From Candidatus Magasanikbacteria bacterium CG_4_10_14_0_2_um_filter_37_12 (GTDB taxonomy: Bacteria; Patescibacteriota; Patescibacteriia; Magasanikbacterales; UBA922): a stretch of 38,349 bases of DNA. The notes below the pieces were generated by a model that worked only from the letters and a program-made list of their open reading frames with translations, was not told the DNA's origin and searched no databases. Below, in pieces: positions 1,765 to 23,515 of the stretch. The DNA is taken from positions 1-38,349 of the forward strand of contig PFPK01000022.1 of the NCBI GenBank assembly GCA_002793015.1. Reading direction: 5' to 3'. The first letter of the stretch is position 1; each line of letters opens with the position of its first letter. Both the position numbers and the translations under genes were made by a program.

Positions 1765-3141
1765 TTAATTATAGAATTTAGAATTAAAATAATCTTTAAG
1801 CTCCCCAATATCCACCCTTTCTTGCTCCATCGTATCACGATCTCTCACCGTAACTTTCTTATCTTCAAGACTATCAAAATCAACAGTCACACAATATGGC
1901 GTACCAATTTCATCTTGCCTTCTATATCTTTTTCCAATACTTCCTGTTTCGTCATGCTGAGTCATCCAAGTACCACGCAAACTATTTTGAATTTCATTAG
2001 ACAAATTCTGCAATGGTTCTTTTTTAGAAAGTGGTAAAATCGCTATCTTGATTGGTGCTAGATCTTTATGAAGACGAAGAACATATTCTTTTTCATGTTT
2101 GGCGTCGTCAGAACCACTGCGAGCATCTATTTCTTCATAAGCATCAATAAGAAAAGCCAAAGTAGCCCGATCAGCTCCGTCTGAAGTCTCAACAATATGG
2201 GGAATAAACTTTTCATTTTTTTCTTGATCAAAATAACTCAAATCTTGCCCACTATATTCACTATGACGAGACAAATCCCAATTTCCTCGATCATGAATAC
2301 CTGCAAGCTCTTTGAATCCCATGCCTGGATAATTGTATTCAATATCCCAAGCTTCAGCTGCATAGTGAGCAAGTTCATCTGATTTGTGTTGTCTAAACTG
2401 CAAATTTTCTTTTTTCATTCCAAAATCCAAATACCACTGCATCCTTGCTTTTTTCCACATCTCAAAAACTTCCTTTTTTTGATCTGGATGAATGAAATAC
2501 TGTTGTTCCATTTGTTCAAACTCGCGTGTTCTGAAAGTAAAATTCCCCGGAGTGATTTCATTTCTAAAAGCCTTTCCAATCTGGGCGACACCAAATGGAA
2601 TTTTCTTTCTCATCGACTGTTGAACATTTAGAAAATTAACATAAATCCCTTGACAAGTCTCTGGTCGTAAATAAATTTGACTGGTGTTATCTTCCAATGC
2701 TCCCATAAAAGTTTTAAACATTAGATTGAACTTTCGTACATCAGTCAAATCTCCTCCACAATCTGGACAGACTACATTATGTTTATCCCACTCGCATGGT
2801 CTGAAATCTGGCTTAATTCCTTTGGCTTCTAGCAAGTGATCTGCCCTCCATCTTTTCTTACAATCTTTACAATCAACCAATGGATCAGTAAACCCAGCAA
2901 TGTGCCCACTAGCCTCCCAAGTCTTTGGATGCATCAAGATAGCAGCGTCCAATCCGACAACATCATTTCTCTCTTGCACCATCGCTTTCCACCAAGCTCT
3001 TTTTACATTATTTTTGAGCTCCACGCCAAGTGGACCGTAATCATAGCATGATGAAAGACCTCCATAAATTTCTGAAGACTGAAAGATGAAGCCACGACGT
3101 TTGGCTAGAGATACTATTGGTTCTAGATTTTCTAAACTCAT
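1765..3141 (-). CDS. glyS: Glycyl-tRNA synthetase, dimeric (alpha2) type
   Basis: Charges tRNA-Gly with glycine in the cytoplasm. The protein opens with LENLEPIVSLAKRRGFIFQSSEIYGG, the usual start of the alpha2 GlyRS found in eukaryotes, archaea and some bacteria, not the alpha2beta2 form. A zinc-binding insertion is visible as CKDCKKRW followed by CPDCGGD. Class II motif 2 is FRNEITPGNFTFRTREFEQ and motif 3 is GADRATLAFLIDAY. The C-terminal anticodon-binding domain begins around LAPIKIAILPL. The start is at 3141 (MSLENL); the in-frame ATG at 3198 would add residues from AT-rich leader DNA. The product is 458 residues, normal for the type. About 150 bp upstream lies the terminator of a glycine T-box leader (3293-3471), so expression should respond to uncharged tRNA-Gly. 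Confidence 0.95.
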   Translation of the reverse strand: MSLENLEPIVSLAKRRGFIFQSSEIYGGLSSCYDYGPLGVELKNNVKRAWWKAMVQERNDVVGLDAAILMHPKTWEASGHIAGFTDPLVDCKDCKKRWRADHLLEAKGIKPDFRPCEWDKHNVVCPDCGGDLTDVRKFNLMFKTFMGALEDNTSQIYLRPETCQGIYVNFLNVQQSMRKKIPFGVAQIGKAFRNEITPGNFTFRTREFEQMEQQYFIHPDQKKEVFEMWKKARMQWYLDFGMKKENLQFRQHKSDELAHYAAEAWDIEYNYPGMGFKELAGIHDRGNWDLSRHSEYSGQDLSYFDQEKNEKFIPHIVETSDGADRATLAFLIDAYEEIDARSGSDDAKHEKEYVLRLHKDLAPIKIAILPLSKKEPLQNLSNEIQNSLRGTWMTQHDETGSIGKRYRRQDEIGTPYCVTVDFDSLEDKKVTVRDRDTMEQERVDIGELKDYFNSKFYN

Positions 3142-3292: not shown

Positions 3293-3319
3293 AAAAAAAG
3301 ACAGCCAAAAATACTGTCT
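3293..3319 (-). terminator. Intrinsic terminator of the glyS T-box leader
   Basis: On the minus strand AGACAG and CTGTCT pair around a nine-base loop and are followed by seven T. Its 5' strand shares two bases with the 3' strand of the T-box antiterminator (CCCGAG at 3318-3323), so the two folds compete, though with a small overlap. Confidence 0.75.
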
Positions 3320-3471
3320 CGGGGTCCGATGTTACTTCGGACGGTTCCACCCGAGTTGTCCGACTTGATCTCGGACCACTCTTTGTATTTTCCACGTATA
3401 TCTGCGAATATTCCGCATTCAATCCGCATCTTTACCACCTCCACAGTTGCCAATACTGTTTCATCAGTGGT
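3293..3471 (-). promoter_or_regulatory. Glycine T-box riboswitch with ultrashort stem I
   Basis: The leader senses uncharged tRNA-Gly and permits transcription into glyS. The antiterminator (3318-3355) is canonical: CTCGGG, the 7-nt bulge TGGAACC, GTCCGA, a 7-nt loop, TCGGAC, CCCGAG. TGGA in the bulge fits the U-CCA end of tRNA-Gly. A stem III hairpin (3358-3376) uses the same six bases GTCCGA/TCGGAC. Stem I (3434-3471) is only 38 nt: an outer ACCAC/GTGGT helix, a K-turn-like TGATGA/GGA junction and a 5-bp helix ACAGT/ACTGT closing a 7-nt loop, ATTGGCA, which holds the glycine codon GGC. There is no long distal stem I for tRNA elbow docking. The assignment follows from structure, discriminator base, specifier and downstream gene all agreeing. 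Confidence 0.88.
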
Positions 3472-3476
3472 ATTAT

Positions 3477-3506
3477 TTATAATAACATTTTGATGAAGAA
3501 AGTCAA
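3477..3506 (-). promoter_or_regulatory. Promoter of the glyS T-box leader
   Basis: On the minus strand TTGACT and TATAAA are separated by 18 bp. Transcription would begin within a few bases of the first base of stem I (3471), so the leader has almost no 5' extension. Confidence 0.65.
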
Positions 3507-4113: not shown

Positions 4114-4551
4114 TTAACTCTCCAAAACCAATGTCACTGGCCCATCGTTAATCAAGCTAACCTGCATATAGGCACCAAATTTCCCAGCAGAAACTTTTAC
4201 ACCAAGCTCATCAATTTTCTTTACAAAATAATCATACAAAGGTTCAGCTACTTCTGGTCTAGCAGCATCAATAAAACTTGGCCTGTTCCCCTTTTTACAA
4301 TCAGCATAGAGGGTAAATTGTGAGACTACCAAAATGTTTCCTGCAGACTGAATGATATTGTTGTTCATCTTCCCATCTTGATCTTCAAATATTCTTAATT
4401 TCGCCAGTTTATCTACCAATTTTATGACCTGTTCTTTTGTGTCATTGTGCGTAATCCCAAGTAAAACCAAAAAACCATGGTCAATTTGACCTATGGTTTT
4501 GTTATCCACACTCACTTTTGCTTCAGAAACTCGCTGTACAACTAAACGCAT
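4114..4551 (-). CDS. dtd: D-aminoacyl-tRNA deacylase
   Basis: Hydrolyses D-aminoacyl-tRNAs (and Gly-tRNA-Ala), a proofreading step after aminoacylation. The 145-residue protein has the family start MRLVVQRVSEAKVSV, the catalytic-site motif SQFTLYADCKKGNRPSF near residue 78 and the C-terminal NDGPVTLVLES carrying the cross-subunit Gly-Pro motif. The length is exact for the family. It lies downstream of frr with a 59-bp gap and may be co-transcribed with it. Confidence 0.95.
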   Translation of the reverse strand: MRLVVQRVSEAKVSVDNKTIGQIDHGFLVLLGITHNDTKEQVIKLVDKLAKLRIFEDQDGKMNNNIIQSAGNILVVSQFTLYADCKKGNRPSFIDAARPEVAEPLYDYFVKKIDELGVKVSAGKFGAYMQVSLINDGPVTLVLES

Positions 4552-23286: not shown

Positions 23287-23314
23287 TCTTTTTAACCTAG
23301 AAACTATCCAACAA

Positions 23315-23339
23315 ACAAAAAACTGTGGTTTTACCACAG
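23315..23339 (-). terminator. Attenuator in the rplJ leader
   Basis: On the minus strand CTGTGG, loop TAAAA, CCACAG is followed by six T. It lies between the L10-binding core and the rplJ start. Confidence 0.85.
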
Positions 23340-23486
23340 ACTTCTATAACTCTTCGACTTTATTAATTCAACTTGATTAAGCCTAGAAAACTAAATTTTC
23401 TTTGGGCTGACTCAAATCTAATTAGAGTTACCTCGGCAGGATATTTAATCCCGACTGAGTCGGGAACCTACTGTCTATGGTGCGGA

Positions 23487-23515
23487 TATAATACTATATA
23501 GATGAAAATTTGTCA
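23487..23515 (-). promoter_or_regulatory. Strong promoter of the rplJL operon
   Basis: On the minus strand a perfect TTGACA (23510-23515) is followed after exactly 17 bp by TATTAT (23487-23492). Confidence 0.8.

Follow-up and report, generated by a model that had tools for sequence, protein, structure and literature searches.

How does a T-box leader hold its tRNA when the parts of the RNA that usually hold it are missing? This question is raised by contig PFPK01000022.1 (38,349 nucleotides (nt), called the window; all coordinates refer to its forward strand), where the minus strand from 3472 to 3293, 5' of glyS, carries a T-box leader. According to current models a T-box holds tRNA by docking stem I to the tRNA elbow, by stem II or by both. 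Where stem I is truncated, these models regard stem II as indispensable, and T-boxes acting on transcription are held to depend on the elbow dock to outpace RNA polymerase (PMC7583486, PMC10482949). Judged from its sequence, the leader is very likely a T-box transcription attenuator of glyS that responds to glycine tRNA, with tRNA capture predicted to take place by specifier and 3' end. With a probability that we put at roughly 0.7, it and its homologues would form a fifth architectural class of T-boxes, which is transcriptional, has an ultrashort stem I whose apical loop carries the specifier, lacks both elbow dock and stem II, reads tRNA-Gly by the codon–anticodon helix and the 3' end alone and is widespread in Patescibacteria.

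Anatomy of the leader and its putative terminator switch

The leader is placed between cold-shock/dtd/frr-type genes and glyS and consists, together with its promoter and the regulated gene, of the following elements:

3501..3506, minus strand: -35 box TTGACT, read directly from the sequence
3479..3484, minus strand: -10 box TATTAT with a 16-nt spacer, read from the sequence
3433..3472, minus strand: ultrashort stem I of 40 nt, from the fold; every pair covaries in homologues
3449..3451, minus strand: specifier GGC (Gly) in the 7-nt apical loop AUUGGCA (3454-3448), with the purine A3448 next to it
3382..3432, minus strand: 51-nt linker with weak hairpins, between stem I and the RRRNG motif
3377..3381, minus strand: GAGUG, the RRRNG purine string 5' of stem III, from the sequence (motif as in PMC7583486)
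3358..3376, minus strand: stem III (GUCCGA/UCGGAC), then AA (3357-3356), from fold and covariation
3318..3355, minus strand: antiterminator with helices A1 (CUCGGG/CCCGAG) and A2 (GUCCGA/UCGGAC), from Rfam match, covariation and computed folds
3343..3349, minus strand: T-box bulge UGGAACC, invariant in 48/48 homologous matches
3293..3320, minus strand: intrinsic terminator GAGACAGU-AUUUUUG-GCUGUCUU plus U-run, from computed folds and family conservation
1765..3141, minus strand: glyS, glycine–tRNA ligase, the regulated gene (NCBIfam PRK04173, 657 bits)

Stem I reads UACCAC(3472-3467)-UGAUGAA-ACAGU-AUUGGCA-ACUGU-GGAG-GUGGUA(3438-3433). Its lower helix (3472-3467/3438-3433) is extended to 7 base pairs (bp) by the extra closing pair U3466-G3439, and the kink-turn (K-turn)-like internal loop GAUGA/GGA separates it from the upper helix (3459-3455/3447-3443). 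The promoter sequence predicts that transcription starts with the first base of stem I, at about 3472, and the terminator lies 152 nt upstream of the glyS start codon at 3141. The Rfam T-box model (RF00230) matches the leader end to end with 41.5 bits (E 8.1e-8). Chance hairpins could be ruled out by the minimum free energy (z-score -3.7, with 0/200 shuffles equally stable), by covariation and by model-free folds of stem I.

Throughout the family a terminator follows the antiterminator, and it is this terminator and not a Shine-Dalgarno (SD) sequestrator that is conserved. Its 5' arm begins with the last three bases of A1 (the RAG in CCCRAG), and the resulting 3-nt overlap, GAG (3320-3318) in the window, where it belongs to both the terminator and the 3' strand of A1, is also conserved and shorter than in textbook T-boxes. 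The folds computed for the window came to -56.3 kcal/mol with the terminator and -54.6 kcal/mol with the antiterminator, a gap of 1.7 kcal/mol, and a transcript ending just before the 3' arm of the terminator was computed to fold with the antiterminator formed. In these models the small overlap of the two states fits a transcriptional switch.

A first-pass annotation, made from the sequence without database searches, had already described the antiterminator as 6 bp, a 7-nt TGGAACC bulge and another 6 bp, placed GGC in a 7-nt terminal loop on a K-turn-like base, seen no distal elbow-docking part and proposed a transcriptional glycine T-box in a genome of the candidate phyla radiation (CPR). All of this agrees with our analysis, except for the length of stem I, which had been given as 38 nt and was measured as 40 nt (3472-3433).

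Conservation and distribution of the family

For the search for relatives we used a covariance model, R1, which was built from six glyS leaders of other species with the window excluded, after early models mixing 6- and 7-nt loops (models A2-A4) had been dropped due to poor alignment. R1 finds the held-out element of the window with 62.7 bits (E 1.5e-14). The aligned set comprises 47 glyS-linked loci with 48 matches, as one locus holds two. In this alignment, 94.1% of the paired cells are pairing compared to 64.5% in shuffles, where the counts lean towards the model because the alignment was fitted to R1, and where related sequences are taken as independent. When the partners were shifted by 1 to 3 columns, the pairing fell to 31-53%. 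Changes on both sides were found in 27 of the 28 pairs, including all ten pairs of stem I, so that both of its helices show compensatory changes at every pair, and A1 and A2 covary as well.

When stem I was folded alone and free of any model, GGC or GGA came to lie in the apical loop in 38/48 matches, compared to 15% of shuffles. The loop, 7 nt in the window and mostly 6-8 nt in the family, shows GGC in 44 cases, GGA in three (L209, L240 and L245) and an unclear codon in one, and thus a glycine codon in 47/48; the GGA loops would fit tRNA-Gly(UCC). Loss of GGC, of the bulge or of the stem I helices among homologues had been named at first pass as grounds for giving up the glycine T-box reading, and the reading came through this check. 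Furthermore, RRRNG is present in 43/48 homologues (29.7 in shuffles) and AA follows stem III in 40/48. The loop codon follows the downstream gene, with GGC/GGA accompanying glyS and ACC accompanying thrS (Fisher p about 2e-5 and 6e-6).

Matches to R1 were found in 34/46 genomes of the family to which the window belongs, in 141/381 genomes of the class (at E 0.05) and in 56/380 genomes across the phylum (at E 0.001). All 73 loci that were read have glyS (45) or thrS (28) near downstream, even if the gene is several hundred bases or more distant at a few of them; the genes of the tested matches were assigned by tblastn with glyS and thrS as references, and NCBIfam confirmed the identity of two of the thrS proteins. 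A match to R1 does not by itself imply an ultrashort stem I, as long-stem glyS leaders from Bacillota also match with up to 42 bits. Weak matches were therefore not counted on score alone, and for the glyS and thrS leaders the sequence itself was read. Read in this way, 29/46 family genomes carry a glyS-linked match. Candidatus Magasanikbacteria from the Patescibacteria group are the source of the closest GlyS proteins, and three leaders from named Candidatus Magasanikbacteria records have counterparts of identical sequence, over 250 nt, among the family genomes. In the open-access literature, with subscription papers and TBDB entries lying outside the search, we found no paper joining T-boxes with CPR, Patescibacteria or Parcubacteria. 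The first-pass annotation had called such a leader unusual for a CPR genome, but with its spread over the family the leader is no isolated oddity. None of 20 homologous loci reaches the Rfam gathering score of 93, and annotation at that cut-off would thus miss these leaders.

Some members of the family show additional features. The motif [GU]ACAA is located just 3' of stem I in 22/48 glyS-leader linkers (A6; e.g. L199, L201, L202), with 3.5 expected from shuffles. L262 (1501-1628 and 1661-1778) contains a tandem pair of ultrashort-stem-I T-boxes 5' of a single glyS, and in L252 (1501-1639) the loop of a T-box-like leader shows GGA (GUUGGAAA), with glyS about 960 nt downstream of the bulge. The glyS T-boxes L239, L240, L243 and L245 seem to be without stem III too, while stem I, linker and antiterminator/terminator are retained.

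Predicted capture of tRNA-Gly and competing explanations

From the sequence we infer tRNA binding, sensing of aminoacylation and the direction of regulation. RNA polymerase would start at the 5' base of the 40-nt stem I, whose apical loop would present GGC to tRNA-Gly with the anticodon GCC, and K-turn and linker would carry the 3' discriminator (RRRNG-stem III-AA plus antiterminator) to the 3' end of the tRNA. The bulge UGGA is complementary to the tRNA-Gly 3' end UCCA (U73), and since family relatives carry tRNA-Gly(GCC) with U73 the bulge does fit tRNA-Gly, as had been proposed at first pass. Uncharged tRNA-Gly would pair with the bulge by this end and hold the antiterminator, leading to transcription of glyS, while charged tRNA would be unable to pair, so that A1 would lose its last three bases and the terminator would form. 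With neither an elbow-docking part nor stem II, capture would have to rest on the three G-C pairs between specifier and anticodon and on the four-base pairing of the 3' end. That glycine T-boxes manage without stem II has been explained by an all-G-C codon–anticodon duplex (PMC7583486), and this offers a plausible mode of action for the glyS family.

The linker of the window has 51 nt compared to 13-23 nt in most homologues, so the window is not the cleanest member of the family. As this linker folds as two nested helices around an internal loop, it might be a degenerate stem II that braces the specifier–anticodon duplex, and the leader would then be a class III-like T-box in which only the terminator output is new. 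Such a connection does exist in the same group, where AGUAGA/AGUAAAA together with the F-box-like [CG]CGUNA accompanies an ultrashort stem I in 7/7 Patescibacterial ileS/valS/aspS-type leaders examined. We nevertheless regard this explanation as unlikely. In the window linker (3432-3382) neither the S-turn AGUAGA nor an F-box was found, which speaks against a stem II at this position, and AGUAGAA occurs in 0/48 and CCGUNA in 1/48 of the glyS-leader linkers. Furthermore, 40/48 glyS homologues have a linker of at most 23 nt (13-23) and no more than 38 nt in stem III, which leaves too little length for stem II together with the IIA/B pseudoknot. By their sequences these 40 leaders lack both stem II and the distal elbow-binding part of stem I.

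That the distal part was simply overlooked and the leader is an ordinary class II glycine T-box with a long stem I would be very surprising, even if class II is glycine-specific and without stem II (PMC10482949) and R1 also recognizes Bacillota glyS leaders. Within 40 nt the stem closes on itself, its pairs covary and its apical loop holds GGC, and we did not find a long stem I with an interdigitated double T-loop motif (IDTM) and the specifier in an internal loop. Promoters abut stem I instead, their -10 boxes lying directly 5' of it: a TTGACA/TATAAT pair (at most 2 mismatches in total) is located just upstream in 33/48 homologous leaders, compared to 1.8 expected from shuffles. With a sigma-70 promoter ending at this position, those 33 leaders leave no room for a longer stem I, and a longer hidden stem I was also rejected for the window.

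It is also improbable that the leader is just an intrinsic attenuator, or a decayed T-box that has lost tRNA sensing. Such an explanation would agree with the patchy distribution, as no R1 match was found in G022 and G026, the two relatives that are closest by GlyS (the contig of G022 being short upstream of glyS), and with the failure to find the cognate tRNA in the window assembly. However, the identity of the specifier tracks the downstream gene, and the window retains every conserved nucleotide class of the family, namely K-turn, GGC-purine, RRRNG, AA, UGGAACC and terminator.

Several observations speak against the main reading of the leader as an attenuator responding to tRNA-Gly. The Rfam score of the leader is below the gathering score of 93, and the conserved G-U wobble of the discriminator at the foot of A2, present as G-U in 17/48 homologues, is G-C in the window. 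The 51-nt linker could offer room for a hidden, unrecognised module. Finally, Rfam, pattern and DNA searches of the 97%-complete assembly did not find a gene for tRNA-Gly(GCC), while tRNA-Gly(UCC) with U73 is present; as tRNA-Asp, tRNA-Trp and tRNA-Ile(GAU) were likewise not found, gaps in the assembly are likely.

Other T-boxes were noted in the group. The genome of the window contains a second one upstream of thrS (L002, contig C8:6162-6330, minus strand) with a strong hairpin GAGAAAGC...GCUUUCUC, which is also present in the related thrS leaders L214, L220 and L259. The patescibacterial thrS leaders L212, L213, L215, L217-L219, L221-L224, L242 and L258 have a multi-branched stem I that includes a short hairpin with ACC in its apical loop, a layout unlike that of the glyS family. 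L012 and L016 are T-boxes 5' of aspS with UAACA in the apical loop, and AAC being an Asn codon, they would suggest sensing of tRNA-Asn by the gene of a non-discriminating AspRS. The gene dtd (D-aminoacyl-tRNA deacylase; 4114-4551 in the window) precedes the T-box-glyS unit on its 5' side, and in L196, L198 and L201 the C-terminal end of dtd can likewise be read just upstream. The window also contains a ribosomal protein L10 leader (23308-23498, minus strand; Rfam RF00557, 44.3 bits, barely over the gathering score).

Comparison with known T-box classes

Four classes of T-boxes have been described (PMC10482949): class I has a long stem I with IDTM plus stem II, class II comprises glycine T-boxes with a long stem I with IDTM and without stem II, class III has a short stem I with the specifier in the apical loop, needs stem II and is mostly translational, and class IV is intermediate. 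With class III, represented by ileS of Nocardia farcinica and Mycobacterium tuberculosis (PMC10482949, PMC7583486), the glyS leaders share the short stem I without the elbow-binding IDTM, the basal K-turn, the specifier in the apical loop and a discriminator with stem III and UGGNACC bulge. In contrast to class III they have no stem II, S-turn or IIA/B pseudoknot, all of which are required there, and they carry a glycine specifier and a terminator instead of an SD sequestrator. From class II, represented by Bacillus subtilis glyQS (PMC10482949), they differ in stem I, which has 40 nt and ends at the specifier loop, whereas the GGC specifier, the flexible linker replacing stem II, the transcriptional output and the UGGAACC bulge are the same. 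Furthermore, GGA in three of the glyS-linked homologues breaks the 'C rule', which has been attributed to stem II, and this is expected where stem II is absent.

A conserved glycine family that acts on a terminator without both supports would make the published T-box rules directly testable and set a lower size limit for a tRNA sensor, and it would extend T-box control, at scale, to the ultrasmall CPR bacteria. No published class from I to IV lacks both the elbow-binding distal part of stem I and stem II, and judged from the sequences the glyS family joins a class III stem I to a class II linker and output, minus both supports.
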